Shown piece after piece: positions 634-51,849 of a stretch of DNA of 64,000 nt. Where the stretch lies: positions 180,716 through 244,715 of IMG/VR virus record IMGVR_UViG_3300036766_002181; one strand, written 5' to 3'. Source of the DNA: a virus. How positions within the stretch are numbered: the stretch's first letter is position 1; each line of letters opens with the position of its first letter. Below the pieces are notes generated by a model. The model was not told the DNA's origin. It saw nothing but the letters and a program-made list of their open reading frames with translations, and made no database searches. The position numbers were made by a program, and so were the translations under genes.

Positions 634-888
634 ATGGGCATTTATATCAGGCTTATTTCTGGAAATCTATATAGGGTTACACTAAGTCCCGAATTTGATG
701 GCTATGCTGCCTTTCATCAGGTTCTTAATAGAGAACCATTTAGGCTTGGCAAAATGCTTAAAATTTGCGATGGACAAATCGCATTGTACTTGGAAAGAAA
801 CTATTTTCTAATTCACGGGCAAATAGTGATTCCTGCTGTTTTTGTTATGCAAAGTAATCCATTTGTACTAGTGGAAGAAAGTGATTGA
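634..888 (+). CDS. PGxLY-family small protein
   Basis: An 84-residue member. SGNLYRV is at residues 9-15, IALYLER forms the central strand, and FLIHGQIVI the C-terminal strand pair. It begins two codons after the RNA ligase stop in the same frame, and is followed in the same frame by two further copies, which suggests tandem duplication. Function unknown. Confidence 0.8.
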   Translation: MGIYIRLISGNLYRVTLSPEFDGYAAFHQVLNREPFRLGKMLKICDGQIALYLERNYFLIHGQIVIPAVFVMQSNPFVLVEESD

Positions 889-894
889 GCCGAT

Positions 895-1155
895 ATGGTG
901 CCATCCCATGCCAAGACATTTATAGAAGGACAATTATATAGAATTGTCGATCACGACGCCAGCCGTGCATGGTTCCATAAAATTATTTCAAACAAACCAT
1001 TGAAAACGAAAATGCTAGAAACCCCTTTGCCTGTTGGCTCCATAGCAATGTGCATTAATGCAAGGACGTTTATATTTTTAGTAAATGGGATCAGGGCAAT
1101 TCCTTCAAAGGGTACTTCGGCATCAGGGCTTCTTCTTCCAATAGAAGAGGATTAA
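895..1155 (+). CDS. PGxLY-family small protein
   Basis: An 86-residue member with EGQLYRI near residue 10, SIAMCI as the central strand and FLVNGIRAIPS at the C-terminal strand pair. It is the closest relative of the next copy (shared HKIIS, KPL, GIR.IPS and PIE), so the two arose by recent duplication. Confidence 0.8.
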   Translation: MVPSHAKTFIEGQLYRIVDHDASRAWFHKIISNKPLKTKMLETPLPVGSIAMCINARTFIFLVNGIRAIPSKGTSASGLLLPIEED

Positions 1156-1416
1156 AGGAACAACAGCGTTGGTTTTATTAATGGAGAACTTTATCGATTG
1201 AATTCAAACGAAGATGCCGGGTTTGGCTTTCTTCATAAAATTATTTCAGACAAGCCCCTGAATACCGCAATGTTTAGTTTGGGAACGGGAGGAATCCTAT
1301 TTTGTATTGACTCAAAAAGGCATATATTTTTATATAAAGGGATTAGAGTTATTCCCTCTGTCGGAACCATACAGCGGGGACTTATTAATCCAATAGAAAA
1401 AGAAGAAGAGAAATAA
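1156..1416 (+). pseudogene. PGxLY-family copy with lost start codon
   Basis: After the TAA at 1153-1155 the same frame continues as AGG AAC AAC AGC and gives a full family protein: NGELYRL, GILFCI and FLYKGIRVIPS. No ATG, GTG or TTG lies upstream of the motif. The TTG at 1198 is downstream of it, and the ATG at 1181 is out of frame and stops after six codons. AGG at 1156 is one base from ATG, and MNN is a usual family start, so the start codon has probably mutated. A rare ATT start (1177) or reading through the TAA are alternatives. Confidence 0.65.
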
Positions 1417-1429
1417 AAAGAATCATTCT

Positions 1430-2629
1430 TTACCAGGGAAGATCGTCAGGATCCACGAATCCGCCAATGTCCCGAATTCGGTTATTGCCGTCTTCATAAT
1501 CCTTGTGTCTTTGGAGATCCTTAACAAAGGTTTCGTCCTCAAACCAGTCTGCCGGTATTTCATTTTCATCCTCTAGATCAAAATCCTTTAGGGCCTCTGC
1601 TTCACTCTCTTCATCGCCAGGATAGACTTCTTCTCCCTTGTCTCCTTCTAGCGGGAAATCTTCAATGCCCTCTTCTCCGTCTTCTTGCGAGGAAGAAACA
1701 TCACTAGCGTCATCATCAAAAGAAATATCCATACCGGATTCCATTGCCGGATCTTCTTCATATTCAGGACCACCACCAGGCATCTTAGCCCGAGGCATTT
1801 TAACTCTGGCACCAGTACCCTGACGATTAGGGCCCTCGTTTGTTGTGTTGCTCATTTCTTCATTAACTCCTTCTTCTGATTCTTGGTGTTTTTTTGTTGT
1901 TGTTGTTGTTGTTGTGGGAATTTCTTTTATGTCAACTCTTCTTGTTCCATAAATTAGCCATCCACGCAGATCAGAAACCTGATCAAGAGCGGCCGTTAGG
2001 GCATCGTCTTCGCTATAAACATCATCTACTGTAACGGTTTCATTCTTTGGTAGACCAAGCTTTTTTGGATCCTGATGGCCCTCGTCTGTTTCCGTATCCC
2101 ACTCAATGCCTCTAAGTGTAACCTTAAATGATTTTCTTTCTTGATTATGTCTTTCGAAGGAAGCCTCTGATTCGGCCGTCCCCAATGATGGACTTGTGGC
2201 AGGATCAAAATCTTCTTTTACCAAATGATTCTTTCTAAATGTTTTTTCTTGGCCCTGTTGTCTGTCTTTATCATCAAAGTCTTCCCATTCCTTGTTTAGT
2301 TCAGACTTCTCTTTATTTGAGGCATTCTCCATATCCCACTTGGCTATATCAGGCCCACCATGACCTGTCAAGGAGGCTTTTTTGTCTTTGCCTTCTTTGC
2401 TTAGACCGCCTGTCGTTCCAGGAGCCGAGGAAGAACCTGGCTTAACATTCTCTGTTTGCATATCAAACAGCATTTTATCATCGTCGTCCTTTTTATCATC
2501 TTTATCTTTATTGGCATCTGCCTCTTTGCAGGTGCAGGGTTCTGATTCATGAATGGCACAAAAGGCCTTATCTTCTGTCTTCAGGGCAAAAACTTCTTTT
2601 AAAGACAGATTGTTATTCTTTTTTATCAT
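1430..2629 (-). CDS. acidic low-complexity protein, probably virion-associated
   Basis: A 399-residue, very acidic protein dominated by D, E, K and S. It starts with a basic/hydrophobic segment (LSLKEVFALK) like other proteins of this operon and 57298-57609. A more ordered stretch around residues 165-235 (VTLRGIEWD ... LRGWLIYGTRRVDI) may be a small fold. A run of seven threonines is encoded by a (GTT)n-type microsatellite near 1891-1915. Acidic, disordered proteins with short N-terminal tags are common as phage scaffold or core proteins, but I recognise no specific family. Confidence 0.7.
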   Translation of the reverse strand: MIKKNNNLSLKEVFALKTEDKAFCAIHESEPCTCKEADANKDKDDKKDDDDKMLFDMQTENVKPGSSSAPGTTGGLSKEGKDKKASLTGHGGPDIAKWDMENASNKEKSELNKEWEDFDDKDRQQGQEKTFRKNHLVKEDFDPATSPSLGTAESEASFERHNQERKSFKVTLRGIEWDTETDEGHQDPKKLGLPKNETVTVDDVYSEDDALTAALDQVSDLRGWLIYGTRRVDIKEIPTTTTTTTKKHQESEEGVNEEMSNTTNEGPNRQGTGARVKMPRAKMPGGGPEYEEDPAMESGMDISFDDDASDVSSSQEDGEEGIEDFPLEGDKGEEVYPGDEESEAEALKDFDLEDENEIPADWFEDETFVKDLQRHKDYEDGNNRIRDIGGFVDPDDLPW

Positions 2630-2634
2630 ATTGG

Positions 2635-2943
2635 TTATTTGCTCTTGGTATTTCTTGGCAGGGTAGCAAATCTACCCACGGCATCAACAACAGACTTTAT
2701 AATGCCCCTTTTCATTTCCTCGGCAATCTCAAAATATCTCTTTTGAAGGGCCGGCTGAAGCTTATCAGGCTCAACAAGGCCTAGTGCCTTTGTTATTTCT
2801 CGCTCAAATTCCATGCTTGCATGCTGAGCCGAATGAACAATTTGTCTTTTTGCAGAAAAGTCGGTGCTTTCATTAAGAGCCAATTTTGCCTTAACCGCCT
2901 CGTCAATTAACTTTTGAAGTTCTTTTTTTGTTATTTTAACCAT
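2635..2943 (-). CDS. small helical protein with KITKKELQKLI tag
   Basis: A 102-residue protein that begins VKITKKELQKLIDEA, a tag repeated almost exactly in the proteins at 43324 and 43599. The rest is predicted alpha-helical (FEREITKALGL, KRGIIKSVVDAVGRF). It sits five bases upstream of the acidic protein gene and is read leftward with it. The tag resembles N-terminal peptides on phage virion proteins; function not known. Confidence 0.7.
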   Translation of the reverse strand: MVKITKKELQKLIDEAVKAKLALNESTDFSAKRQIVHSAQHASMEFEREITKALGLVEPDKLQPALQKRYFEIAEEMKRGIIKSVVDAVGRFATLPRNTKSK

Positions 2944-5457: not shown

Positions 5458-5485
5458 AATTTAAATCTGATATTTTTCTTGTCAA
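5458..5485 (-). promoter_or_regulatory. promoter for the Hsp20 gene
   Basis: Read on the minus strand: TTGACA at 5485-5480, a 16-base spacer, and TAAATT at 5463-5458. It overlaps the last codons of the upstream PGxLY gene. Confidence 0.45.
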
Positions 5486-5821
5486 GAGGACATATTAAAC
5501 GGTTCTAAGGCATTTGAAAAATCTATTGAGGCAATTACAATTTTTCCTCTATATAAAAAAGTACAAACCTTAACATGCATTAGAATCTCACCGGCCGGAA
5601 CAGTGATGAGGTCATTAAAAATTCCTCGCCATGCTCTTCGATGATCACTCGTGGGGCATGGTTGGGACACTATTCTTGTTCCCAAGGGAAATACGGGTTC
5701 AGGGGTCTTTATTATATAGGTTACCTGGCACCAAGTCATAACCAGAAATTCTTTTGAAAAACTCTTCATAAGACTCTTCTAAATCAAGCCATTGAGAATC
5801 TGAAAACTTCTTTTTATTCAT
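5482..5821 (-). pseudogene. PGxLY-family copy with single-base frameshift
   Basis: From the ATG at 5821 the frame encodes MNKKKFSDSQWLDLEESYEE then LVPGNLYNKDP and stops. A shift of one base at about 5724-5732 (tatataataaag) restores IKTPEP, ILMHVKV, FLYRGKIVI and ALEPF. The repaired protein aligns over its full length with the neighbour at 5814-6128 (EESYEEFF/KESYEEYF), which locates the lesion. Total length is 3n+1, consistent with one extra base. The start overlaps the previous stop (ATGAATAA). Confidence 0.75.
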
Positions 5822-6128
5822 AGCACAAGGGTTTTATATTTGGCAATAAACCAATTGATGGGACAGAGATCTTGCCCTGGTATAAAAATTGAGCATTGCC
5901 GATATACATTAAAATTCCACTACTAACAAATCGTATTGTTATTGGTCGAATCTCATTAAGAATATGCAACGCATAATCTTCATCATCAACCGCCGCCATT
6001 ATTTTATATAACTCGCCCTTAATCAATTTAAATGAAGAATACTTCTCAAAGTATTCTTCATAAGATTCTTTCTGTTTGTGCCAAGATGAATAGAGAAACG
6101 GATTAGCCTGTCTACTGAGCATACTCAT
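5814..6128 (-). CDS. PGxLY-family small protein
   Basis: 104 residues, with an N-terminal extension of about 35 residues that is shared with the frameshifted copy downstream (KESYEEYFEKY). The core follows as KGELYKI, ILMYI and FLYQGKISV. Its start overlaps the stop of the next gene upstream. Confidence 0.8.
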   Translation of the reverse strand: MSMLSRQANPFLYSSWHKQKESYEEYFEKYSSFKLIKGELYKIMAAVDDEDYALHILNEIRPITIRFVSSGILMYIGNAQFLYQGKISVPSIGLLPNIKPLCYE

Positions 6129-6385
6129 GTTACTTTAATCAACTGACTATCGTACTTGTAATTAAAAATAATTCTCTTTCCATCATAGAGAAAAACAGGT
6201 ATGCCAGACTTAATTTGAGGTATTTCAATATATTCTATAAACAAAATTGGCATCATTTGATTTTTCATATTAAAATGATGTAATAAGCGTGGCCCTTCGC
6301 CACTACCAGCAAGAATATTAAATTGTATACCAATTTCAGGAAGGCTTTGAAATTGATAAAGTTCGCCGGGAATAAATTTAATCAT
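6125..6385 (-). CDS. PGxLY-family small protein
   Basis: 86 residues: FIPGELYQF at 4-12, PILFIEYIEI centrally and PVFLYDGKRIIF near the C-terminus. It overlaps the kinase gene stop by one base, so it is the second gene of a tightly packed leftward operon. Confidence 0.82.
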   Translation of the reverse strand: MIKFIPGELYQFQSLPEIGIQFNILAGSGEGPRLLHHFNMKNQMMPILFIEYIEIPQIKSGIPVFLYDGKRIIFNYKYDSQLIKVT

Positions 6386-13872: not shown

Positions 13873-14130
13873 ATGACCAATCAGATTAAAATTGGAGAGC
13901 TTTACAGAACAGAGCTTTTTGGTTATTTGTTTGAAGAAGAACCAAACAGAAGGCGGCATACTGATAAAAAATATTTTGATAAGAATGTTATTTTCTGCCT
14001 TATAGATAAAACCAAACTTATTCACAGCACTTATTTTAAATTGCTGTTACCAACAACCGGACAAATTTTATACACACCAACAGGAAAAGAACATTTGTTT
14101 TTAAAACATTTTAAGCTGGTGGAATTATAA
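13873..14130 (+). CDS. PGxLY-family small protein
   Basis: 85 residues: KIGELYRTELF at the start, NVIFCLIDKT centrally, GQILYTPTGKEHLF and HFKLVEL at the end. The proline of the motif is replaced by isoleucine. It lies alone between a tRNA and the exonuclease promoter. Confidence 0.75.
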   Translation: MTNQIKIGELYRTELFGYLFEEEPNRRRHTDKKYFDKNVIFCLIDKTKLIHSTYFKLLLPTTGQILYTPTGKEHLFLKHFKLVEL

Positions 14131-14728: not shown

Positions 14729-14967
14729 TGACGGATTTCTTTGTTTCAGGAAACCTGTACAGAATAAAAAACCAGATATATTTTGGTAGCTTTGGGCTTA
14801 TAAACGTACAAGAGATTATCTTTTTGGTTGATGTAAAAAAGAAAAAGAGGCCAGGATATAGCAGATCTTTTAATGAAGTTGTTTTTCTCCATAATGGGAA
14901 ATTAGAAAAAGCAACAATTTCAAATATAGAATTAAACTATATTAGCAGAAGTCTGGAAGAGCTTTAA
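14728..14967 (+). CDS. PGxLY-family small protein
   Basis: 79 residues: VSGNLYRIKNQ, EIIFLVDV, then VVFLHNGKLEKA. Starts on the last base of the exonuclease stop. Confidence 0.82.
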   Translation: MTDFFVSGNLYRIKNQIYFGSFGLINVQEIIFLVDVKKKKRPGYSRSFNEVVFLHNGKLEKATISNIELNYISRSLEEL

Positions 14968-31890: not shown

Positions 31891-31892
31891 GG

Positions 31893-34586: not shown

Positions 34587-34632
34587 TATTGTTAACAATC
34601 CAGTCTTTTAAGATGCCTCTTCTAGAAGGACG

Positions 34633-35643: not shown

Positions 35644-35656
35644 GGCCTTTTGGTAT

Positions 35657-36283: not shown

Positions 36284-36319
36284 ATAGAGCCAACCTGTAT
36301 TCCTCAACTGCGGCACTTT

Positions 36320-37386: not shown

Positions 37387-37414
37387 TTGTTTTTGAATTA
37401 GTTTAGATTATAAT
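37387..37414 (+). promoter_or_regulatory. sigma70-like promoter for amidoligase 1
   Basis: TTGTTT 37387-37392, 16-base spacer, TATAAT 37409-37414; the first usable ATG is at 37434. Confidence 0.65.
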
Positions 37415-37433
37415 GATATTCATCCAATCAAGG

Positions 37434-38591
37434 ATGCCAGGGAGAAACGACAAGATGCCAACCCTTCCGACCGCCGCCAGTGTTCGCCAGTGTTCGATTT
37501 GCCAGGTTATTGGCCACAACAGCCGCACCTGTCCTTCAGAGGCTGCCGTTGCTCTTCGTGGTGTCGTTCCTGCCGAGCTTGTTGCCTCAATCCGCTCTAA
37601 CCGTACCTTTGGCATCGAAGTCGAGTTTATCGGTTCCATGCAACGTGCTGCCGATGCCCTGAACCAGGCCGGGATTCCTTGCAGCGTCCAGGGCCACAAC
37701 CACTCGGTTTGTACGGCTTGGAAGGTCGTCACGGATGGTTCGGTGTCTGCCGGGGGTGAGCTTGTCTCCCCAATTCTCTCAGGCGCAGAAGGCCTTACAA
37801 CGGCTTACAAGGCCGTTCGTGCTCTTGCCGCCGCAGGTCTGTCGGCCAATCGTTCATGCGGCCTGCATGTTCATGTTGGGGCTGTCGATACGACTTCTGA
37901 GAAGCGTCTTTCGATTGCCCGGCGCTATGCCAAGTTTGAATCCCAGATTGATTCTTGGATGGCTCCTTCACGCCGGGCCAATGCCAGCCGATGGTGCCAG
38001 TCGATTATCGGTAGGACAGAGGGAACCAATCCTTCGATTCTTAATGATCGCTATTTCAAGGTCAACCTGACCGCCTTTAGCCGTCACCAGACCATTGAAT
38101 TCCGTCAGCATCAGGGTACGGTCAATGCCAAGAAGGTCTGCAACTGGGTCAAGTTCTGCGTGAACTTCGTGGAAGAGTCGCTTAATCGTTTGGTGTCTCC
38201 TGTCCAGCAGGAAACCCCTGTTTCGACCTGCCGTGTCGATAATGACATTCGTCTTACCCGCAGCCTTAACCGCATGGTTCAATACTTGGAGAGCCGTGGA
38301 ATTGCTTGCACCTCTGCGGACGTGCTTGCTCGTGACTGCAACGTTGGTTCCACGACGGTTGCGGTCATGATTTCTAACCTTCGCACCCGTTACGGCTACC
38401 AGATTTCACATCGTCGTGGCCAGGGCTACAGGCTGGTTAGCTCGCCTCTTGCTACTCGCCAGACGCTTGTCCCTGTCGTTGCTCCTGTTGCGCCCATGGC
38501 CGACGATTCCAGCCCCCTGGTTGGCCTGGACTTGGAGGCGACTCGCTTCTTCGCCGGCCGAGTGCAAGGCGTTGCAGTGACGGCAATTTAA
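37434..38591 (+). CDS. zinc knuckle-amidoligase-winged helix protein 1
   Basis: 385 residues (ATG 37455 also possible). A CCHC zinc knuckle (CSICQVIGHNSRTC, about 20-33) precedes an amidoligase_2-type domain: FGIEVEFIGS, GGELVSPILSG, CGLHVHVGA, IEFRQHQGTVNAKKVCNW. The last 100 residues hold a winged-helix-like segment (TTVAVMISNLRTRYGYQI, GQGYRLV). Amidoligases of the GCS/glutamine-synthetase-like fold join an amine to a carboxylate using ATP. GC-rich codon use contrasts with flanking PGxLY genes. Confidence 0.82.
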   Translation: MPGRNDKMPTLPTAASVRQCSICQVIGHNSRTCPSEAAVALRGVVPAELVASIRSNRTFGIEVEFIGSMQRAADALNQAGIPCSVQGHNHSVCTAWKVVTDGSVSAGGELVSPILSGAEGLTTAYKAVRALAAAGLSANRSCGLHVHVGAVDTTSEKRLSIARRYAKFESQIDSWMAPSRRANASRWCQSIIGRTEGTNPSILNDRYFKVNLTAFSRHQTIEFRQHQGTVNAKKVCNWVKFCVNFVEESLNRLVSPVQQETPVSTCRVDNDIRLTRSLNRMVQYLESRGIACTSADVLARDCNVGSTTVAVMISNLRTRYGYQISHRRGQGYRLVSSPLATRQTLVPVVAPVAPMADDSSPLVGLDLEATRFFAGRVQGVAVTAI

Positions 38592-38603: not shown

Positions 38604-38906
38604 ATGCCCATGGTGACAAATAAGAAAACAAGCAAACGTGCGAGAACGGAGCTTGTTAAGAAAGCAAGGCCAGGATCACCGTGGAAGGCAGCATGGCCTT
38701 TAAAGGTCTATGATGATAGCGAATCCAGCAAGTTCAAAACCTGCACCTTAAATGAAGGTGAAATTTTTATGATTATAGGTGTTCTAAACTTGCCAGGGAC
38801 ACAGGTACCGGCCTTGAAGATTCTTATACCAAAAACAGGCCAAATTTATTTAGACTGTTTTCGTAAAGATGAAATTATAGAGGTTTGCAGCAATGGCAAC
38901 AAGTAA
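38604..38906 (+). CDS. divergent PGxLY-family protein
   Basis: 100 residues: ARPGSPWKAAWPL, EIFMIIGVLN, ALKILIPKTGQIYLD. The motif reads PGSPW. Starts twelve bases after the amidoligase and overlaps the next gene by 14 bases. Confidence 0.65.
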   Translation: MPMVTNKKTSKRARTELVKKARPGSPWKAAWPLKVYDDSESSKFKTCTLNEGEIFMIIGVLNLPGTQVPALKILIPKTGQIYLDCFRKDEIIEVCSNGNK

Positions 38907-39156
38907 TAACAAGTTAATTCCAGGAGAATTATACAGATTAGATCCAGAATTTCATAGTAACCTGGAAGTACATTTTGAATTTCGTGTCTGTCCAGTTGAT
39001 CCTAGATCATATGAGGATTTTGTTCTTGGCTATATACTCTTGGATAGCGATATTCTTATGGCCCTATCTAGCATTGATGGAGGAATGTTTTTATATGAAG
39101 GCGAAAAAGTTAAAATCGGCGGCCAATGGCTGAATAGGCTTGAAAGAATCTCATGA
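38893..39156 (+). CDS. PGxLY-family small protein
   Basis: 87 residues: LIPGELYRLDPEF, DILMALSSIDG, MFLYEGEKVKIGG, LERIS. The LERIS ending is shared by the next gene. Confidence 0.85.
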   Translation: MATSNNKLIPGELYRLDPEFHSNLEVHFEFRVCPVDPRSYEDFVLGYILLDSDILMALSSIDGGMFLYEGEKVKIGGQWLNRLERIS

Positions 39157-39473
39157 CAAAGAAGCTCGTTATTAACGATTGGTATCTAGAGGAGGCCAAC
39201 AGACTTTTAGACATACTAAAGATAGGAAAGTTGTATTGCTATAAACCAAACGCCACAACAAGTGCTAATTCCCCATGGAATCCTCTTAACCCAGACGGCC
39301 TACCAACTTTGGGAATAATCTATTATCCTGTGGGACAAGAAATATTATTGTTGGTAAGATTTGTGGAGAAAAACTCCTGGATTAATAGAAGTTATCCCAT
39401 GTTTCTTCATAATGGCCAACTTTTTTATATTAGCGTTATCCACCAAAGTATGCTTGAAAGAATCTCGGCATGA
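39153..39473 (+). CDS. PGxLY-family small protein
   Basis: 106 residues: LKIGKLYCYKPN after a 20-residue helix, EILLLVRFVEK, PMFLHNGQLFYIS, MLERISA. Overlaps both neighbours by four bases. Confidence 0.83.
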   Translation: MTKKLVINDWYLEEANRLLDILKIGKLYCYKPNATTSANSPWNPLNPDGLPTLGIIYYPVGQEILLLVRFVEKNSWINRSYPMFLHNGQLFYISVIHQSMLERISA

Positions 39474-39493
39474 AAGATAGAAAAATAAGGTTA

Positions 39494-39757
39494 ATGAACA
39501 ATAACAAAATTGTTCCAGGAGAATTGTATTGTTATACTACTCTTGAAAATGACCAGGATTATTATGTTTGGCCCATCGATATACAATTCAAATTTAACAA
39601 GACCGCCTACTTTGGCGGATTTAAAGTTTCAAACAAAACAATTCTGTTGGCCTTGGCAATGCATATCGGCATATCCAGACTAAACGTATTTTTGTATCAG
39701 AATACAAAGGTTGTTACTAACCATTTTTATCAGGACCAACTTAAAAAGATTTCTTAA
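39494..39757 (+). CDS. PGxLY-family small protein
   Basis: 87 residues from ATG 39494 (a start at 39470 overlaps the previous stop): IVPGELYCYTTLE, TILLALAMHIG, NVFLYQNTKVV. Confidence 0.83.
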   Translation: MNNNKIVPGELYCYTTLENDQDYYVWPIDIQFKFNKTAYFGGFKVSNKTILLALAMHIGISRLNVFLYQNTKVVTNHFYQDQLKKIS

Positions 39758-39765: not shown

Positions 39766-40044
39766 ATGTCAACAGCGCCATTATTATTGTCCAGCAAGAA
39801 CCCTATTCCAGGAAGTTTATATAGACTTGATAGACGCTATGATTATGCGCATTGCATTTATGTTTACAACCCAGCAACGAGAACGGCCAAGACTGAAACT
39901 TATCTCGATTATAAAGGGGCCGATTTTATTCTGCATATTTGCCATATTGGTAAACCATGGAATGAACTATGGTTATATAACAATCAATTGGTTGTATTGG
40001 TATTGTTTTGCGAACAGAAGCTAATCGAGGCTTCATGTCTATAA
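39766..40044 (+). CDS. PGxLY-family small protein
   Basis: 92 residues: PIPGSLYRLDRRY, DFILHICHIGK, LWLYNNQLVVLVL. Confidence 0.83.
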   Translation: MSTAPLLLSSKNPIPGSLYRLDRRYDYAHCIYVYNPATRTAKTETYLDYKGADFILHICHIGKPWNELWLYNNQLVVLVLFCEQKLIEASCL

Positions 40045-40274: not shown

Positions 40275-40517
40275 ATGATTTCTCCATGGTGGATTAGATT
40301 TGGCGGACTTTATGCTTTAAAACATTCTGGATATCTTCTAAAAGAAGAGGACGACAACACGTCTGCCCATGAAGCCTTTAAAGGGAAAACCATTTTTATT
40401 CCCTTGTGTGAATGGCCGCATCATCAACGATATATTTCTTGTTTTTGCTTATATAATGGGAAAAAATATCTGATAGACAGACTTTATTTTTATGATACTT
40501 TTCATTTTATCTCCTAA
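40275..40517 (+). CDS. PGxLY-family small protein
   Basis: 80 residues: RFGGLYALKHSG, KTIFIPLCEWP, FCLYNGKKYLIDR. Last gene of the rightward run; meets the tail-chaperone gene tail to tail. Confidence 0.78.
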   Translation: MISPWWIRFGGLYALKHSGYLLKEEDDNTSAHEAFKGKTIFIPLCEWPHHQRYISCFCLYNGKKYLIDRLYFYDTFHFIS

Positions 40518-43323: not shown

Positions 43324-43593
43324 ATGAAAATAACAAAACAAGAATTAAAGCGATTAATCAAAGAAGAATTTTTAAAGGAAGCGCCAAAAAAATCAAAAAA
43401 GCTAAAACCAATTGCTTGGGTAAGTTATAAAATACATATTCCTGTTTATTTGCACGAACTTCCTCCTGGAGCCGATCCACGGGACGCTTTAGACGAATCT
43501 ATCGAAAATGCGGCAGAAGAAAAATTAAAAGTTGCTTGCCCAAATATCAAAAGTCAATTTGATCTTGAATATGAAGAAACACACCAGAGATAA
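43324..43593 (+). CDS. KITKQELK-tagged small protein
   Basis: 89 residues: the tag MKITKQELKRLIKEEFLKE, then a beta-alpha domain (PIAWVSYKIHIPVYLHE). Next gene has nearly the same tag. Both follow the endolysin. Confidence 0.65.
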   Translation: MKITKQELKRLIKEEFLKEAPKKSKKLKPIAWVSYKIHIPVYLHELPPGADPRDALDESIENAAEEKLKVACPNIKSQFDLEYEETHQR

Positions 43594-43598: not shown

Positions 43599-44060
43599 AT
43601 GAAAATAACAAAACAAGAACTTAAGAAGATTATAAGAGAAGCGTTGGCTGAAGAAAAGATTCCTTTTGGTGGATCCATAAGTGCAGATCTCAGCAATGCA
43701 GAACAGCAGGCAAGACAATCTCCACACTACAACAAGTGGAAAAGAGAATATGTTAAAGCCAGAAAGACTCAGAATATAACAAATTCAATAAAGGCAGCAA
43801 ATAAGGTTCTTAACATGAGTGAGGGCATCGGCATAAGTCACAAAGCAAAAGAATTGTCAGAGCACCGCACCGATGCCGAACGAGACGAGGATAGAGGAGA
43901 ATCGGTTGCAACTGTAGAAGAATTTAAAAAAATCTTAAAGCATCTAAGAGACAATAATGCAGGCAATTTCTCTGATTATTCCATCGGCTATAAGAGGGCA
44001 ATCGAAGATGTGGCAGAAGCATTTATGCCGTGGGACAGAGGAAATTTTCTTGAAGAATAA
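43599..44060 (+). CDS. KITKQELK-tagged hypothetical protein
   Basis: 153 residues: tag MKITKQELKKIIREALAEE, then polar helices. The tag is shared with 2635-2943 and 43324-43593 while the bodies differ, so the tag is a portable element. Confidence 0.65.
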   Translation: MKITKQELKKIIREALAEEKIPFGGSISADLSNAEQQARQSPHYNKWKREYVKARKTQNITNSIKAANKVLNMSEGIGISHKAKELSEHRTDAERDEDRGESVATVEEFKKILKHLRDNNAGNFSDYSIGYKRAIEDVAEAFMPWDRGNFLEE

Positions 44061-44393: not shown

Positions 44394-44738
44394 ATGATAA
44401 AATTAAGCAAAAATACAAAGGTAACCCTTTCTCTTGAAACCATTATAAGTCTGGCCGTGACCATCGTTATGGGTGCCAGTCTTTATTATAATATGGCCAC
44501 GAAGGATTATGTTGACAATAGAATTAAGGATGCAACAGAACAGAGAATAGAAAAAATTGAATCAAAGGCAGATTCAACAAATGAACAAATACATAAAATT
44601 GACACAGCAATTGAACTTCTTTCCAAGTCTGTAAGCAACCACGACAAGAACATGGAAGCCTTTACGACGGCCCTAGAGAAGCTCAGAGACTCTTTGGTGT
44701 CTTCCTCTTCTGGCCGCCGATCTTCCGGCGATCGTTAA
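44394..44738 (+). CDS. single-helix membrane protein with coiled coil, possible holin/spanin
   Basis: 114 residues: one N-terminal membrane helix (TIISLAVTIVMGASLYYNMA) and a long coiled coil (EQRIEKIESKADSTNEQIHK). Place near the endolysin suggests a lysis role, but hole formation is not shown. Overlaps the convergent gene at its 3' end. Confidence 0.6.
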   Translation: MIKLSKNTKVTLSLETIISLAVTIVMGASLYYNMATKDYVDNRIKDATEQRIEKIESKADSTNEQIHKIDTAIELLSKSVSNHDKNMEAFTTALEKLRDSLVSSSSGRRSSGDR

Positions 44739-45192
44739 AAGAATAGTCTTTAAGATTCCTGGTCATCAATACGGGTATAACCTCTAATATATCAAGGGAA
44801 TGAATCCACCAGGACTTTCCTTCTGATAAAATTTTAATTCCATGAATTAGCTTTGGAAAAAAGCTATAGGTTTGTACCTCTAGAACCATTAGGGTTTCAT
44901 CTGAAATTCTGTTTTTGTTAAGTTGCAGATATCTTATTGAGCTTCTATATGGATCTGTTTTTAAACTATCAAAGGTCTTATAAAGACCAACATCATCATT
45001 TTCATATTTATCAAAGGCTCTTATTTTTATAAGGTCACCAACATATAGGGTCATTATTTTTCCTTCTAGGAAAGGAAGAAAGGGAGCGTCGGTGGAATTA
45101 GAAACGATGGCTGTCGTAGTAGCGACCGCCATTTGTTTTGCTTTTCTTTTCCGGCCTGTTGCTATTGTTTTTCTTATTCTTTTTGCTACCAT
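44683..45192 (-). CDS. divergent PGxLY-like protein with basic N-terminus
   Basis: 169 residues from ATG 45192: Lys/Arg-rich start, then YVGDLIKIRAFDKY, ETLMVLEVQTY, IKILSEGKSWWIHS and DILEVI. The layout and the KxLxxGKSWWI end fit the family, the first motif reads VGDLIKI. Confidence 0.58.
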   Translation of the reverse strand: MVAKRIRKTIATGRKRKAKQMAVATTTAIVSNSTDAPFLPFLEGKIMTLYVGDLIKIRAFDKYENDDVGLYKTFDSLKTDPYRSSIRYLQLNKNRISDETLMVLEVQTYSFFPKLIHGIKILSEGKSWWIHSLDILEVIPVLMTRNLKDYSFNDRRKIGGQKRKTPKSL

Positions 45193-45196
45193 GTTA

Positions 45197-45646
45197 TTAT
45201 GGTGCCTTTTTCTTCTCTTTATTGACTTCAAAGAATTCATGAGTTAACAAAGAAACATCAGAGGCAGGAAACCACAGGGGTCTTGCTACTTCTCTTTTTA
45301 CGTCAGGAATTAGAACCTTGTAAAATCTAGAAATATTAAAAGTAGCATATGGTTTTTCTAGCTTCCAATCATCAAAATCCAAGACCATTCCTGATATTGG
45401 AGTTTCATCTCCTCGATCATTGTCTATGCCCTGGGCAATAAAACCTAATTCATAGAAAAAGTGATTAATCTTAGCATAACCATAGGCCTGCCATTTTTCT
45501 GTAAAAGACTTGATCTGAACCGGAGCAAGCTGATTTCCATTTGGGCCACATAAAAGAGTGGCCGGCCAAACCTTAACCAAAACAAGCGAGCCCTTTTTGA
45601 TAAGGGCTTCATTGGATTTAAGAAGAAATGGTTCTTCGGTTCTCAT
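45197..45646 (-). CDS. hypothetical protein, remote PGxLY similarity
   Basis: 149 residues. KKGSLVLVKVWPATLL could be the first strand, but the central and last motifs are unclear (YKVLIPDV, RPLWFPASDVSLL). Its stop overlaps the next gene region, so the pair is one transcript. Confidence 0.55.
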   Translation of the reverse strand: MRTEEPFLLKSNEALIKKGSLVLVKVWPATLLCGPNGNQLAPVQIKSFTEKWQAYGYAKINHFFYELGFIAQGIDNDRGDETPISGMVLDFDDWKLEKPYATFNISRFYKVLIPDVKREVARPLWFPASDVSLLTHEFFEVNKEKKKAP

Positions 45647-45696: not shown

Positions 45697-46671
45697 GTGC
45701 AAAACAATAAACGAAAAAAGTATGTCCTTGCCTCTGTTGCTATAACGGCCTTTTATCTTATTTTTGCATTTGCCTCTTATATTTATAACTCCGTTACTTC
45801 TGACAATCTTGGCATTAGTACAATCGTACAACAATCATCGCCGGGCTCTCACATAAAATCAGGCACGCCAACAACCATTAAGGTTTTAACCTTTAATGTT
45901 CACGGGCTACCAAACACCAAGGATGTTTCTTGTGATAATCTTATTAAGATTGGTCTGGCCCTAAGAGATCTAAGAAAAAAGAATCTTGCACCAGACATAG
46001 TTGCAATTCAAGAAGGCTTTCACATAAAGACCAGAAAATTAATCGAGCTTTCTGGCTATCCCTATGCAATGGAAGGACCAACAGGAGACAAGGGAGAAGT
46101 CGTTTCGGGTTTATGGATTTTAAGTGAATATCCTATCGTTCTAAATAAAACAAGCATTTTCAATGTTTGCATTTCCTGGGATTGTTTGGTAAACAAGGGA
46201 ATTCAACTTGCTGCAATAAAACTATCTGGCGATATTGAACTACAAATTTTTAATACTCACATGAATTCCTTTCCTGACTCAGACCCAATTACTTCTAGAA
46301 AGGCAACAGTGGGGATAAAAGAAAATCAAATAAATCAATTTTTTAGCTGGTTTGCTTCTACGATAAATGACAAATTGCCGGCAATTGTTTTAGGAGATTT
46401 TAATTTTAAGGCAAGGGATCCGCTTTATAGAAAATTTGAAGGGTTAATTTCAAAACACGTTCCAATAAACAACGTCTTTGAAGAATTTCTGGGAAAAACC
46501 TTAAAGGCTGTACCAGGAACAGTGGATCATCAGTTTTTAATTAAAACTAAGAATACAAATGTTAAACTTGTGCCAGTTCGTTATGAAAGAATGTTTACAG
46601 ATAGAACAATGTCAGATCATAGAGGCGTACTTGTCGAGTATAGGATTATCAAAGTTCTTCAAAATATGTAA
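45697..46671 (+). CDS. membrane-anchored EEP-family phosphodiesterase/nuclease
   Basis: 324 residues from GTG 45697. An N-terminal membrane helix (YVLASVAITAFYLIFAFASY) precedes an endonuclease/exonuclease/phosphatase domain: LTFNVHGLP, VAIQEG (metal Glu), FNTHMNS, VLGDFNFKA and SDHRGVLVEY (final His-Asp). Family members include DNase I-like nucleases, sphingomyelinase-like and phosphoinositide phosphatases. The membrane anchor and periplasm-facing orientation suggest action on membrane lipid head groups or on incoming DNA; which one is open. Confidence 0.78.
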   Translation: MQNNKRKKYVLASVAITAFYLIFAFASYIYNSVTSDNLGISTIVQQSSPGSHIKSGTPTTIKVLTFNVHGLPNTKDVSCDNLIKIGLALRDLRKKNLAPDIVAIQEGFHIKTRKLIELSGYPYAMEGPTGDKGEVVSGLWILSEYPIVLNKTSIFNVCISWDCLVNKGIQLAAIKLSGDIELQIFNTHMNSFPDSDPITSRKATVGIKENQINQFFSWFASTINDKLPAIVLGDFNFKARDPLYRKFEGLISKHVPINNVFEEFLGKTLKAVPGTVDHQFLIKTKNTNVKLVPVRYERMFTDRTMSDHRGVLVEYRIIKVLQNM

Positions 46672-46960
46672 CGATAAATCTTGTGTGATAAAAGTCGTCA
46701 GGAAGATTTTTTCCGCCTTCTATCGTAGATACGGTTCCATGGCCCTTTCGACCGTGCTTTAAATAAGAAACAACTATAATGGCACCTTCTTTTTTTGCCT
46801 TCTCAAAGTTTTTATGAGGCCTTAAATCAAAAGTCTTGGGCCAATCCTGCACTAAAGGATAAAAAACGTATTCTAAAAACATCACAATGGCAGAAGACCT
46901 GTCTTCTTCATAGTTTATTCTTACCAGAGATCCAGGTTCTAACTCTCTTATATTTAACAC
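46649..46960 (-). CDS. PGxLY-family small protein
   Basis: 103 residues: LEPGSLVRINYEE, SAIVMFLEYVFYPL close behind, then GAIIVVSYLKHGR and FIVTYFEEL. Order of the later strands is altered compared with most copies. Confidence 0.7.
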   Translation of the reverse strand: MLNIRELEPGSLVRINYEEDRSSAIVMFLEYVFYPLVQDWPKTFDLRPHKNFEKAKKEGAIIVVSYLKHGRKGHGTVSTIEGGKNLPDDFYHTRFIVTYFEEL

Positions 46961-46986: not shown

Positions 46987-47511
46987 CTATTTGTTATTTT
47001 CATTTGAAGAACTGTTATTTTCAATTTTTGAATAGGACTGATGAAAGTATTCACAAATAACAGATTCAGGAGTAAAATACCAAATCTTGTCCTGAAAGAG
47101 CATTTTTGCTCTTTGTCTTTTCTTCTTAATTTCTTCGTCTGTAAATGTTTCTATGCCAAGAAACATTACGATGCTTCGGGGCTCAATCTTACAGCGAACG
47201 TGGTTTGCAGTCCAAATAGTATTTTCTTTTATTGCTCTATATAAGGTACCTGGCAACCCAAAGATTTCTTTATGAGCATTTGAAAAGAAGCGTCTTCTTT
47301 TCTTCTTTTCTTTCTTTATAAGAATTGGTCTACGTCTTTTCAGACCACCACTGGAAGAACTATTGGCAGCTACAAGTCTTTCCCAGGTATAGTTTAGGTT
47401 TTCCTTGTTCGGAAAATAATCAACATTTTCTTTATGAAGACTATCCTTGCTGGCACTAATAGTGGGATTGGCCCTGTTGTTGCTGTTGCTTGATTTTTTT
47501 ATCATTGCCAT
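46987..47511 (-). CDS. PGxLY-family protein with long basic N-terminal extension
   Basis: 174 residues: about 85 Asn/Ser- and Lys/Arg-rich residues, then FGLPGTLYRAIKEN, SIVMFLGIETF, KMLFQDKIWYFT and a polar tail. Confidence 0.75.
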   Translation of the reverse strand: MAMIKKSSNSNNRANPTISASKDSLHKENVDYFPNKENLNYTWERLVAANSSSSGGLKRRRPILIKKEKKKRRRFFSNAHKEIFGLPGTLYRAIKENTIWTANHVRCKIEPRSIVMFLGIETFTDEEIKKKRQRAKMLFQDKIWYFTPESVICEYFHQSYSKIENNSSSNENNK

Positions 47512-47722: not shown

Positions 47723-49402
47723 TTATGTCAATCGAGCCAATCGGGCACGCTCTGTTCGACAAGAAAAACAATTGCAGGGCAGATCATTTACACCCACAAC
47801 ACTTGCCTCAATATTACTAATATCATTATTTAGGTTTCTATCGGCCCTAATAGACAGGTTGGTTTGAGCCATGTTCGGCACGGTGGTATTGATATAAACG
47901 CTAGGAGAGGCAACAGGCGGTCTTGCTCGGCCTGGCCGACGAAATAGCTCGGGCGGGGGAATAAATCCAAAATTCATGCCATCTTCTCCATTGTCGGGAG
48001 GAGCAAGAGGAGGAGGAGGAGGAGGAGGAGGAGGAGGATCGACATAGTTTATAGTAATGCCACTTGCCGGACGATTCATAGGAGCGGCAACTTCGCCGGC
48101 AGCGACAAGGGAGTTAACTCGATCATTGCTGTTTAGTTCTAGATCTTCATTATCAAAGTCTGGGGAAGGAGCATCAGGCGATTCTCTCTGATTTCCTCGT
48201 GCAAGAGAGGCAAGCATTCTACGATTATAAAAGTCTGCCGAGTCAGAATCTAGGCCTCTCCAATATCTGTCTGACTCGGCAGTAATGGCAAGACCTTCGG
48301 TATCAGTACCTGTTGTGGCCAGTGCAACAGGTACTGTTGCAACTTGGCCCCTTCTTCTACGAGGAGGTCTAGGAATATATGGAACTGCCGGCAGCATCAT
48401 ATTGCCAAATCTATAGACATAGTATTCTCTGTTCCTGTATCTTGCCTCAATATCAAATCCAAACTGATTGACAAGCCTTTTTATCGTAGTAATAAGCACA
48501 CGAGAAGACATGCCTGTAGTTGTCGAGGCTCTTTGAATGTTGAGTAAGACGTGTCCTCTGGGTGGACAATGGTGGTAGTATGTGTTCATTGTTAGAGCAG
48601 AAGGCCTTCTGCTCGGAGGAAGCTGGCTGTTATCTTCTTGTTCAATATCAAGACAATATTGAATAAGTTTGTTAAAGTTTTGCATTCCTCTTGTGCCAAT
48701 TGGATAAAATGGCGTAACATAGGTGTCTCTGCCACGCCTTCTCTGTGCCCTCTCGGCACCTGTAAAGGGAAACTCTTCTGTATAAAGCGAACAATTTTTG
48801 CCGGCCTCGACAAAGTTAACACAAAACTTAATCCAGTTAGAAATCTTTTTAATGTTCAGGGTTCCATGATGGTGTCGAAATTCAATTGTCCTGTGTCTCT
48901 GATAGGCGGCAAGATTAATCTTAAAATAACGATTATTATAAATGTTAGAATTTCTAATAGGAGAGAGAGATCTACAATAGGTGTTTAATTCTCCTCTTCT
49001 TGAGGGAGCCATAAGATTGTCAATTTGAGATTCAAAGTGTCCATAACGCCGGGCAATGTTTAGGCGTTCGATGGGAGACAGATCTCCTGCGTCTACGTGA
49101 ACATGTAGACCACAGGTAGAATTAACTCTTGCTCCTGCTGCCACAAGGGCCGCAACGGCAATTTTAACCTGCTCTAGACCAGCCTCGCCGGACAGGGGAG
49201 GAGAAACAAGCTCTCCACCATGGCCATTGTTGCTTCTAACCGAACCATCTGTGGTAATTTTCCAGGTCGTAGAGGTTCGATGATTATAGTCCTGAACGTC
49301 ACAAAAAATATTTCTGGCATTTAAGGCCTCTGCCGCCGTGTGTAGAGAAATCCAGGTAAATTCAATTTCTACACCAAATCTTCGGTCGCTAGCAATTGCC
49401 AT
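47723..49402 (-). CDS. amidoligase-winged helix protein 2, long form
   Basis: 559 residues. Amidoligase_2-type motifs start at the N-terminus: FGVEIEFTW, GGELVSPPLSG, CGLHVHVDA, PSRRGE, IEFRHHHGTLNIKKISNW. The N-terminal zinc knuckle of the other two is missing; instead CNCFSC lies near the C-terminus. A winged-helix-like region (ASTTTGMSSRVLITTIKRLV) is followed by a 200-residue disordered part with a run of ten prolines from a (GGA)n-type microsatellite at about 48003-48037. Confidence 0.8.
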   Translation of the reverse strand: MAIASDRRFGVEIEFTWISLHTAAEALNARNIFCDVQDYNHRTSTTWKITTDGSVRSNNGHGGELVSPPLSGEAGLEQVKIAVAALVAAGARVNSTCGLHVHVDAGDLSPIERLNIARRYGHFESQIDNLMAPSRRGELNTYCRSLSPIRNSNIYNNRYFKINLAAYQRHRTIEFRHHHGTLNIKKISNWIKFCVNFVEAGKNCSLYTEEFPFTGAERAQRRRGRDTYVTPFYPIGTRGMQNFNKLIQYCLDIEQEDNSQLPPSRRPSALTMNTYYHHCPPRGHVLLNIQRASTTTGMSSRVLITTIKRLVNQFGFDIEARYRNREYYVYRFGNMMLPAVPYIPRPPRRRRGQVATVPVALATTGTDTEGLAITAESDRYWRGLDSDSADFYNRRMLASLARGNQRESPDAPSPDFDNEDLELNSNDRVNSLVAAGEVAAPMNRPASGITINYVDPPPPPPPPPPLAPPDNGEDGMNFGFIPPPELFRRPGRARPPVASPSVYINTTVPNMAQTNLSIRADRNLNNDISNIEASVVGVNDLPCNCFSCRTERARLARLT

Positions 49403-49520: not shown

Positions 49521-49739
49521 TTATGCCAAATTCCGCTGTGTCAAGTTTGTGTATTGAAGAAATTTAAGCTGAATTACGGTTCTGTCTAAATTAACAAGTC
49601 TTTTTTCTTTTATTGAATATGCTGTAAAGAAATTGCCTTGGCGACTAGAGCTCATGCATACAAAATAGTAGGGTCTTAATGGTTTGCGGTCTGTTTTTGC
49701 GAGACTAAATAAGTCACCAATTTTGGGAAATTCAAGCAT
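49521..49739 (-). CDS. small protein of the divergent GDL subgroup
   Basis: 72 residues: PKIGDLFSLAKTD, PYYFVCMSS, FFTAYSIKEKRLVNL. Shares the order of strands with the PGxLY family but with IGDL in place of PGxL. Groups with the three genes that follow upstream. Confidence 0.65.
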   Translation of the reverse strand: MLEFPKIGDLFSLAKTDRKPLRPYYFVCMSSSRQGNFFTAYSIKEKRLVNLDRTVIQLKFLQYTNLTQRNLA

Positions 49740-49947
49740 AAATTGTCATAGTATTGAGATATTCTGGGCTCATAATCAGATATTTATGAGTTTGCAGTGA
49801 GTATACCTGAAACCAAATTGCTCCGTTGGAGTTTTTAATAGGTTTTAAAAATAGAAAATAAAACAATCTACCTCGAAACTCTCTGAAAAATATATTTCCA
49901 GACACCAAATTATTGGCCACTTCCCATAAGTCAATAGAATTAGACAT
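49732..49947 (-). CDS. small protein of the divergent GDL subgroup
   Basis: 71 residues: VSGNIFFREFRGR, FYFLFLKPI, WFQVYSLQTHKYLIMSPEY. The VYSLxxxK element recurs in its neighbours (AYSIKEK, VYSLEEK). Confidence 0.65.
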   Translation of the reverse strand: MSNSIDLWEVANNLVSGNIFFREFRGRLFYFLFLKPIKNSNGAIWFQVYSLQTHKYLIMSPEYLNTMTIYA

Positions 49948-49954
49948 TTTATCT

Positions 49955-50131
49955 TTAGAATGGGAGTGTTAAGTTTTGAAGATTGTGCCAACTTGTTTCT
50001 CCTAAAACATAGACGGCTTTTTCTTCTAACGAATATACAAAAAACCAAAATTCTGCATATGGACCCAAGTATATCATGTGCCGGCCGTTTTGATCTATCA
50101 ACAAATCTCCAGCGTTTACCGATTTAGACAT
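49955..50131 (-). CDS. small protein of the divergent GDL subgroup
   Basis: 58 residues from ATG 50131: VNAGDLLIDQNG, MIYLGPYAEFWFFVYSLEEKAVYV. Confidence 0.62.
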   Translation of the reverse strand: MSKSVNAGDLLIDQNGRHMIYLGPYAEFWFFVYSLEEKAVYVLGETSWHNLQNLTLPF

Positions 50132-50138
50132 CTTTCTT

Positions 50139-50378
50139 TTAATCTGGCGAAGAAATAACCTCAAAATTATCAAGATGTTCCATTAGAAAAAATCTGGTTG
50201 CATTGGATCTGCACGAATAGGCTGAGAAATAATCTAGGTCACTTGAGGTATGAGAAATATATATAAAGATTCCTTGTGTCCATTTAAATCCCCCAAGATA
50301 AGAGTTTTTATTAATCTGAATTAAATCTCCCTTTCTAGGCGGGCATTCACTAAGAGGAAGTACATTCTGAATGGCCAT
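50139..50378 (-). CDS. small protein of the divergent GDL subgroup
   Basis: 79 residues from ATG 50378: PRKGDLIQINKNS, GIFIYISHTS, YFSAYSCRSNATRFF. Confidence 0.65.
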   Translation of the reverse strand: MAIQNVLPLSECPPRKGDLIQINKNSYLGGFKWTQGIFIYISHTSSDLDYFSAYSCRSNATRFFLMEHLDNFEVISSPD

Positions 50379-50662
50379 CACAGTTTTTGAAATTCTAGAA
50401 TATGATTAACTGAAACAAAAGTAAACTTCTTCTCAGAAACGTGCAGGGCAACCATAAAGGTGTTGGTAATATACAGACACATAAATATACCACGATATTC
50501 AACGTATTTATCAAGCCAAGAATCTTTATGCAATTTAAACAGGCATCCCGGCTTAAAGGACTTGATGTGACATTGCTGATTGACCACCTCGTTCATACTC
50601 GCAAGCTTTGGGTTGTGGGGCCAGGAAGTATTTGTCCAGGCAGATGGATTGTTACCAGTCAC
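50378..50662 (-). CDS. PGxLY-family small protein, intermediate form
   Basis: 94 residues: FKPGCLFKLHKDS, GIFMCLYITN, VALHVSEKKFTFVSV. It has the classical PGxL motif but the IFMxxYI centre of the GDL subgroup, which links the two. Confidence 0.7.
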   Translation of the reverse strand: MTGNNPSAWTNTSWPHNPKLASMNEVVNQQCHIKSFKPGCLFKLHKDSWLDKYVEYRGIFMCLYITNTFMVALHVSEKKFTFVSVNHILEFQKL

Positions 50663-50852
50663 ATTCTTTTTCTCTTTCTCTCTGCCGCCTTATGCGTCTA
50701 CGCTCTTCGTGCTTATGCTTTTTGTGTTGCATGCGCTCATATTTGTTTGGAGGGACAGGCGAACCTTCATCAGAAGAGGAAGACGCTTCTTCTTCGCCGC
50801 CCTCTTCGTCGTCGGTGCCTTCAAAGAAAAAGAATTTATTTGAAAAAGTCAT
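50652..50852 (-). CDS. acidic-basic low-complexity protein
   Basis: 66 residues: FFFFEGTDDEEGG, acidic and Ser-rich middle, Arg/Glu/Lys-rich end. Overlaps the next gene by eleven bases. Real but uninformative. Confidence 0.5.
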   Translation of the reverse strand: MTFSNKFFFFEGTDDEEGGEEEASSSSDEGSPVPPNKYERMQHKKHKHEERRRIRRQREREKECDW

Positions 50853-51011
50853 TTTATGACCTATTTTTTTGAGGGAGAGAGTGAGGGAGATTAACAGTAA
50901 TAGACAGAATCGGAAATAAGTCGCACGTCACGCATGAAATATTCTGCGCCCATCCAAAGTATAGACAAATCAAATAGAATTTGCATTTTGTAGATGTTTT
51001 CCCTTTATTTG

Positions 51012-51254
51012 TTACGGAGCGGTTGGAGTCTTATACTTTCCATCTGGAAAACGTTCCTTGTCTCCCATTGGTTTTCGTGCAACCTTTTGTTTAAGGCCGT
51101 GGGCTCCATGACTGCCGCCTGTGCTTCTCTGAAGCAGCTTGCTGATGGTTCTTCCGCCCTGATTGCCAGCACAAGAACACGAGCGCAAGACTCGCTTGCA
51201 CCAATCACACCATGGAATTTTCTCGGTCTTTGTTGCTACTACAATATCGCCCAT
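51012..51254 (-). CDS. small CxxC protein
   Basis: 80 residues: PWCDWCKRVLRSCSCAG holds four cysteines in a tight cluster, followed by a Gly/Arg/Lys-rich tail (KPMGDKERFPDGKYKTP). A zinc-binding, possibly nucleic-acid-binding peptide. Confidence 0.55.
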   Translation of the reverse strand: MGDIVVATKTEKIPWCDWCKRVLRSCSCAGNQGGRTISKLLQRSTGGSHGAHGLKQKVARKPMGDKERFPDGKYKTPTAP

Positions 51255-51322
51255 TTTAGAATCCTCTGCTTTCCAGTTCTTTCAAAGTGTTAAGTATAAT
51301 ATCGCATATTTTTTTACAAATG

Positions 51323-51598
51323 TCAATAAGAAATCAATTCAAAAAAATACATAAAATCCTCTTTTATAACAACATTGCCAAAATATTTCTTATTATCTTT
51401 TGGACAATACAAAAGAAAGCCCTTTAGATCCTTTGTCGTTTCAATACAAACAAATTTTTCGCCAGCCTCAAAGTGCCTATAAACCGTTATAGCAGGATTT
51501 GGCTTTAGAGAATCACTCTGCCAAAATCCTGTACAGCCTATTAGTTTAATCAGGGATCCTGGCTTAAGACCTCTATTATCTTGAATGGTCACAGACAA
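51323..51598 (-). CDS. PGxLY-family small protein
   Basis: 91 residues: LKPGSLIKLIGCTG, EKFVCIETTK, GFLLYCPKDNKKYFG. Sister of the next gene (GFxLYCPKxNKKYxx, GEKFxx). Confidence 0.75.
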   Translation of the reverse strand: MSVTIQDNRGLKPGSLIKLIGCTGFWQSDSLKPNPAITVYRHFEAGEKFVCIETTKDLKGFLLYCPKDNKKYFGNVVIKEDFMYFFELISY

Positions 51599-51849
51599 GA
51601 AAAGACCCTGAAAAACCTATCGATCCGCGCATAATATTTTTTGTTAGTTTTGGGGCAGTATAGAATAAAGCCGCGCTTATCTATACCCTTGTTATTTGCA
51701 AGTAAAATAAATTTTTCGCCTGATTTAAAATTCTCGCAAGTGGGAAAATTAAAATTTGTTAACGGATCTTCCAGCCAAAATCCTGCATCTTGATTTAAAC
51801 AAATCAGGCTTCCTTCTTGTGCCGAATTTCTATTCTTTAGCATTTGCAT
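51589..51849 (-). CDS. PGxLY-family small protein
   Basis: 86 residues: AQEGSLICLNQDAG, EKFILLANNKG, GFILYCPKTNKKYYAR. Overlaps its sister by ten bases. Confidence 0.75.
   Translation of the reverse strand: MQMLKNRNSAQEGSLICLNQDAGFWLEDPLTNFNFPTCENFKSGEKFILLANNKGIDKRGFILYCPKTNKKYYARIDRFFRVFSCL

Follow-up and report, generated by a model that had tools for sequence, protein, structure and literature searches.

The 64,000-nt window analysed here, bases 180,716-244,715 of IMG/VR virus record IMGVR_UViG_3300036766_002181, forms one end of that 244,715-bp record and carries arrays of small genes on both strands, which we refer to as the PGxLY family after the motif at the start of their products. 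The record is of the jumbo myovirus type, with large tail-sheath genes and genes for a head maturation protease, a head-tail adaptor, GroEL and DNA polymerase III alpha. Named phages are all distant from it (closest sheath matches approximately 28% identical). Its relatives in IMG/VR show 39-54% sheath identity and include three large records of 235, 254 and 257 kb (G029, G032 and G035); 70 of the 366 predicted genes of the PGxLY phage were matched in at least one of these three.

A family profile was seeded with 26 hand-picked sequences, and iterative hidden Markov models were run over the 1466 open reading frames (ORFs; at least 40 residues) of the whole record. The search converged on 63 ORFs at E<0.05, with the best reversed decoy at E ~0.2. 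When each of 58 members was removed from its own training alignment before the search (leave-one-out, LOO), 57 were recovered at E<0.01 and 51 at E<1e-3, and 39 of the recovered members lie in the window. A six-frame search, run separately, gave 58 PGxLY places across the record. The PGxLY genes are shown to be one homologous family of common ancestry, and the existence of such a small-gene family, claimed in a first-pass annotation made from the letters alone, was confirmed. Pairwise BLAST of small ORFs catches mere fragments of it (largest cluster, only 4 genes) because the mean column identity across the family is 14%. The members and related genes of the window are as follows.

634-888, plus strand: PGxLY member (SGNLYR), LOO E 2e-5
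895-1155, plus strand: PGxLY member (EGQLYR), LOO E 2e-4
1162-1416, plus strand: PGxLY member (NGELYR), E 1.4e-7; frame without ATG, GTG or TTG upstream of the motif, the listed ORF beginning at 1198, past the motif
5482-5833, minus strand: frame-broken member, PGNLY in 5702-5833 and FLYRGK in 5482-5769
5814-6128, minus strand: PGxLY member (KGELYK), LOO E 5e-6
6125-6385, minus strand: PGxLY member (PGELYQ), LOO E 7e-7
13873-14130, plus strand: PGxLY member (IGELYR), directly after a tRNA-Arg gene, LOO E 2e-5
14728-14967, plus strand: PGxLY member (SGNLYR), LOO E 2e-5
14969-15259, plus strand: PGxLY member (PGSLYR), modelled with AlphaFold2, LOO E 5e-11
15240-15507, plus strand: frame-broken member, its frame shifted within a T7 run
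15512-15781, plus strand: PGxLY member (PGRLYR), 43% identical to 14969-15259, LOO E 7e-11
15742-16084, plus strand: frame-broken member, its frame shifted within a T7 run, E 1.5e-7
16091-16354, plus strand: PGxLY member (PGNLYR), LOO E 2e-10
19618-20076, plus strand: PGxLY member (EGNLFK), LOO E 4e-4
25320-25745, plus strand: PGxLY member (LGTLWR), LOO E 8e-4
25742-26116, minus strand: PGxLY member (PGALYS), LOO E 0.004
26203-26541, minus strand: PGxLY member (PGSLYR), LOO E 3e-6
26636-26896, minus strand: PGxLY member (PGHLYR), LOO E 3e-8
27072-27533, plus strand: PGxLY member (PGNLYK), LOO E 5e-9
28440-28814, minus strand: PGxLY member (PGALYR), LOO E 2e-6
28846-29235, minus strand: PGxLY member (PGNLYK), LOO E 3e-11
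29153-29602, minus strand: PGxLY member (PGQLYR), LOO E 1e-5
29748-30017, minus strand: PGxLY member (PGELYR), LOO E 8e-8
30024-30299, minus strand: PGxLY member (PGNLYM), LOO E 3e-4
30299-30784, minus strand: possible very diverged member (AGTLFK), by motif and position only, not recovered by the profile
30802-31149, minus strand: PGxLY member (PGKLYK), LOO E 3e-9
31115-31462, minus strand: PGxLY member (EGEAYR), LOO E 5e-6
31443-31920, minus strand: broken member, disrupted by an exact tandem duplication of 46 bp at 31734-31833
31893-32251, minus strand: frame-broken member (PGSLF, then frame change)
32230-32589, minus strand: PGxLY member (PGCLYS), LOO E 6e-7
32583-32930, minus strand: PGxLY member (PGSLYM), LOO E 7e-6
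32909-33289, minus strand: PGxLY member (PGELYL), LOO E 2e-5
33286-33585, minus strand: PGxLY member (PGELYE), LOO E 1e-5
33582-33926, minus strand: PGxLY member (AGSLYK), LOO E 9e-5
33923-34228, minus strand: PGxLY member (PGELYK), LOO E 5e-7
34212-34598, minus strand: PGxLY member (PGNLYR), 9-bp microsatellite near the 3' end, LOO E 4e-7
35329-35643, plus strand: PGxLY member (LGNLYR), LOO E 3e-10
35564-35980, plus strand: PGxLY member (PGSLYR), LOO E 2e-8
35990-36316, minus strand: PGxLY member (RGSLYK), LOO E 4e-9
38604-38906, plus strand: possible member, very diverged (PGSPWK), E 0.34
38893-39156, plus strand: PGxLY member (PGELYR), LOO E 8e-7
39153-39473, plus strand: PGxLY member (IGKLYC), LOO E 6e-7
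39470-39757, plus strand: PGxLY member (PGELYC), LOO E 2e-8
39766-40044, plus strand: PGxLY member (PGSLYR), LOO E 2e-4
40275-40517, plus strand: possible member, very diverged (FGGLYA, CLYNGKKYL), E 1.8, by alignment
44683-45240, minus strand: GDLV-type gene, sister set
45197-45646, minus strand: GDLV-type gene (KKGSLVLV)
46649-46960, minus strand: possible GDLV-type gene (EPGSLVRI), E 0.09
46987-47277, minus strand: PGxLY member (PGTLYR), longest ORF reaching 47511, LOO E 4e-4
49521-50173, minus strand: three small GDLV-like genes (49521-49739, 49732-49947 and 49955-50173), by alignment, the last modelled with AlphaFold2
50139-50381, minus strand: GDLV-type gene (RKGDLIQI)
50378-50662, minus strand: weak PGxLY member (PGCLFK), LOO E 0.07
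51323-51598, minus strand: PGxLY member, intermediate in type (KPGSLIKL), LOO E 0.007
51589-51849, minus strand: weak member (QEGSLICL), E 0.027

The window holds approximately 46 PGxLY copies, with the broken (at least five) and weaker ones counted, and 14-18 more lie outside it, at 3.5-13, 66-76, 99 and 172 kb of the record. The family is large, as the first-pass annotation had it, yet its figure of at least 50 copies in the window lumped in 10-12 genes that either belong to a separate SH3-like type, GDLV, or are very diverged. The arrays at 0.6-1.4, 5.5-6.4, 13.9-16.4, 25-36.3 and 38.9-40.0 kb were placed correctly, whereas those at 44.7-46.9 and 49.5-50.4 kb are mostly GDLV-type, and in that part only 46987-47277 and 51323-51598 pass the LOO search. 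Two further figures had to be revised: instead of about 15 kb of genome, the 58 training ORFs together span 18,971 bp over the whole record, and instead of overlaps of 1-14 bases, an overlap of exactly 4 nt (ATGA), typical of translational coupling, was counted in 11 of 35 adjacent pairs, and a few pairs overlap by 7-38 nt.

Column counts of the members bore out the three shared motifs that had been described, namely an xGxLY start, a central ILMFI and an FLY end. The conserved columns read, in order, L/F-x-I/V-P-G-x-L-Y-R/K, I-L-M-x-F-I, and F-L-Y with N-G-K-L/I-x-V/I. In the first motif G is kept in 57, L in 56 and Y in 51 of 58 members, and F of the FLY column in 50 of 56. Mean pairwise identity is 54% in the PGxLYR motif and 27-29% in the other two; in the loops between the motifs it drops to 10% (first loop, 11-49 residues long) and 7.5% (second loop, 3-30 residues long). 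Polar conservation is limited to R/K after LY and K/R/Q after G, and no column conserves an acidic residue, a histidine or a cysteine. A shared enzyme activity is disfavoured since catalytic-type residues are not conserved, and a role as DNA mimics was rejected, acidity not being uniform among the members.

AlphaFold2, run on the family alignment, gave a five-stranded SH3-like barrel for the member at 14993-15256 (gene 14969-15259; predicted local distance difference test, pLDDT, 82); its strands include LYR, ILMFI, FVFDG and VVCNKG, and a turn precedes the last strand. A Foldseek search of the PDB with this model returned mostly SH3 domains at E 0.2-1.4, single matches being non-significant. 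For the GDLV-type gene at 49958-50134, in the 49.5-51.8 kb group, the model was likewise SH3-like (pLDDT 90.5), and Foldseek listed SH3 together with other SH3-like chains (PWWP, ribosomal). The best E over both models was 0.05-0.2, the top PDB matches being mostly SH3. These models and the Foldseek consensus support the prediction, already made in the first-pass annotation, that PGxLY and GDLV-type proteins are SH3-like small beta barrels. A PDB sequence match to a beta-propeller was rejected (weak best stretch, E 0.024; different fold).

The copies arose by tandem duplication, since their best matches are array neighbours far above chance: 14 of 57 members had a neighbour in the array as best BLAST partner, whereas 1.2 were expected and 2000 shuffles gave at most 7. 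The closest pairs, 43% and 39% identical, are neighbours or near-neighbours. Frames are intact in approximately 90% of copies. Among the broken ones, two carry shifts in T7 runs (15240-15507 and 15742-16084), one carries the 46-bp duplication, which is either a true mutation or possibly an assembly fault, and two others lie at 5482-5833 and 31893-32251. Runs of 7-8 identical bases were left unbroken 85 times in long ORFs and 17 times in intact PGxLY members. Sequencing error behind all broken copies is unlikely, with the caveat that long ORFs are selected for intactness and that the duplication may stem from assembly. Many short trinucleotide and 9-bp repeats (Glu, Asp, Ser and Gln runs) also sit inside coding sequence, often near member ends, at window 25.7, 26.5, 27.4, 28.55, 28.8, 34.25 and 48.0 kb.

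The ratio of nonsynonymous to synonymous substitution rates (dN/dS) was 0.50 and 0.40 in the two closest measurable pairs, where dS exceeded 1 and was near saturation; pooled over three pairs, with dS near saturation, it was 0.31 in the core and 0.66 in the loops. Purifying selection acts on the PGxLY copies, less strongly in their loops, and argues against junk. The strong diversifying selection proposed earlier found no support, dN being lower than dS in the closest pairs; positive selection could go unnoticed because dS is so high.

The GDLV-type proteins share a layout in which G-D-L-V is followed by a hydrophobic strand in the centre and a V-x-W/N-G hairpin at the end. In G029 there are 19-21 such genes, in a tandem array at 29.4-32 kb and also at 58-64 and 81-85 kb; G035 has 8-14, many of them in tandem arrays at 204-205 and 235-240 kb (the last group to 241 kb), others at 218-221 kb; G032 has 5-6, in regions 16-20 and 224-246 kb. 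The PGxLY phage record itself contains up to seven, among them 44683-45240, 45197-45646 and 50139-50381. Comparison of the PGxLY and GDLV profiles with hhalign gave P 0.0009 one way and 0.017 the other way, against 0.05-0.45 for reversed controls; a second, stronger comparison was discounted, as one sequence was common to both sides. Common descent of the two types is likely but unproven. The small-gene arrays of G035 share their region with an 11-copy family (203954-227000) of ~160-208-residue proteins, several with alanine-rich ends.

Searches for PGxLY relatives gave nothing convincing in 38 sheath-relative records (the three large ones included) or in 11 further relatives, and the profile run without prefilters against the ORFs of G029, G032 and G035 did no better (best E 0.016). 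The whole records of six named phages held no member (best E 0.02); tblastn of named phages with five PGxLY members and one GDLV query returned nothing credible, and the GDLV profile had two weak matches only in the six. Motif scans of IMG/VR yielded 24 contigs and no real member, the weak matches being the bare motif inside long ORFs, and two neighbour genes used as bait found no relatives. Many of the relatives searched are fragments, and near-identical records may be missing from the collections; because it was not found in these relatives, the PGxLY expansion is lineage-specific as far as the collections show. At the curated cut-off no Pfam family was matched by more than one of 48 members and no Pfam SH3 model matched. 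The 11 PHROGs hit had one member each (best E 0.003), and PADLOC, a library of defence rather than anti-defence models, gave one weak single-member match. The family therefore remains unrecognised, as had been claimed: none of the Pfam, PHROG or PADLOC families is hit by two or more members, and no report of it appeared in the literature searched.

We infer, with slightly less than even confidence, that the copies are small non-enzymatic binders for host takeover or counter-defence. Each gene would encode a free-standing SH3-like barrel of ~75-110 residues, acting as a binding module, in which the framework (PGxLY strand, ILMFI strand, FLYxGK hairpin) is retained and the two long loops are almost unconstrained. 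Local tandem duplication would supply new copies, whose loops would come to differ in sequence and length, and frame-breaking mutations would remove copies again; during host takeover the copies would bind or inhibit different host proteins, including defence components, so that the phage would hold a repertoire and not a single dose of one protein. The full scheme, one SH3-like scaffold with two hypervariable loops in ~60 tandem-duplicated copies, each binding a different host target, with parallel radiations in sister phages, is more tentative. Compared with enzymes, DNA mimics or structural parts, a binder set with separate targets is the better fit: the core is kept, the loops are free and no chemistry is shared, copies are born in tandem and lost again, they sit in accessory DNA, and purifying selection acts on them. 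A nicotinamide adenine dinucleotide (NAD) salvage cluster at window 53302-57278 (NrtR-type Nudix regulator, NAMPT, CTP-transferase-like nucleotidyltransferase, second Nudix) suggests host-conflict-type genes at this end of the record, NAD salvage-type pathways having been linked to countering NAD-depleting defence (PMC12774641).

Several observations weigh against a set of host-directed binders. The loops show relaxed rather than positive selection, and the family has no match to known anti-defence or inhibitor families. All Foldseek E values exceed 0.001, and the SH3 call relies on topology and the consensus of matches. A binding role, host targets and early expression are what we infer; the arrays contain hardly more sigma-70-like sites than shuffled sequence does (55 vs. 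42 ± 7; 62 vs. 56 ± 8), and with so slight an excess early expression is not established.

The proteins could instead be regulators binding nucleic acid, ribosome or RNA polymerase, as KOW/Tudor-like SH3 barrels tuning transcription or translation. The PWWP-single-stranded DNA and ribosomal chains in the Foldseek list of the GDLV model point this way, as do the R/K after LY in 41 of 58 members and the ~35-copy zinc-ribbon expansion of Bacillus phage G, which Iyer et al. proposed to be specific transcription factors or structural DNA-binding proteins (PMC7824862). Yet members have no common basic character (mean net charge +0.3, standard deviation 3.2; isoelectric point below 5.5 in 8 and above 8.5 in 22) and no motif common to the loops, and we consider such regulators unlikely. 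Mostly non-adaptive proliferation, in which copies at a duplication-prone locus persist or decay with no copy-specific benefit, would agree with the frame-broken copies, the exact 46-bp duplication and many short repeats, and the lack of copies in the relatives searched. We regard it as distinctly unlikely, since dN/dS in the closest pairs and the share of intact frames indicate that most copies are maintained, and the parallel GDLV radiations in relatives suggest recurrent benefit. Phages do employ small sponge proteins, such as Tad1, Tad2, Acb2 and Acb4 (PMC11722364, PMC12043709), and the barrels might likewise mop up ligands such as nucleotide immune signals, different copies being matched to different signals. 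This is improbable: pocket-type residues are not conserved across members, and no PADLOC, Pfam or PHROG family is common to them. SH3-like domains are known in tail and capsid proteins, but a role as virion accessory or decoration proteins is the most improbable of all, the arrays being mostly distant from the structural genes held in common, and our searches detecting none of them in three relatives whose structural core is the same.

Three Amidoligase_2 genes adjoin the arrays (window 37413-38591, 47723-49402 and 51920-53134), and in two of them a zinc-knuckle-like motif, GHNSRTCP, stands at the N terminus. Otherwise unrelated proteins (window 2635-2943, 43324-43593 and 43599-44060), and also a run of approximately eight G029 genes at 77.5-80.9 kb, have in common an N-terminal tag like MKITKxxLxxIIxEE, which could be a targeting or processing signal. 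The DNA polymerase III alpha gene (L012:2821-7389) has an insertion with an HNH endonuclease match at residues ~961-1183, which is probably an intein or a comparable element.

Should different copies bind different host proteins, as we propose, the arrays would be a ready library of natural inhibitors and a marker for counter-defence loci that needs no prior knowledge of targets. Small-domain expansions in jumbo phages are already known; the databases and literature searched yielded no SH3-like family of ~60 copies accompanied by parallel GDLV radiations, and the present case suggests that a jumbo-phage clade repeatedly expands small SH3-like barrels in accessory regions. Closest to the PGxLY proteins are the GDLV proteins of G029, G035 and G032, which share the G-x-L-hydrophobic start, the central hydrophobic strand, the V/F..(D/N)G hairpin, a tandem arrangement within accessory regions and, for the window representative, an SH3-like model. 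They differ in having GD for Gx and LV for LY, in the absence of FLYxGK, in often being shorter (55-75 residues) and in number, with at most 21 profile matches per record vs. 58 PGxLY places. Eukaryotic and bacterial SH3 domains resemble the family in strand order, in the short turn before the last strand and in supplying most top PDB matches, whereas PGxLY proteins are free-standing single domains outside the Pfam SH3 models. Tad1, Tad2, Acb2 and Acb4 are, like them, small phage proteins of host-conflict type, yet form defined families binding specific immune signals, while PGxLY proteins have neither a family match nor shared pocket-type residues. The zinc ribbons of phage G are likewise a lineage-specific small-domain expansion in a jumbo phage with function unassigned, but have a different fold and fewer copies; the 58 detectable places in one 245-kb record exceed that ~35-copy case, the sole comparable one in the literature searched.

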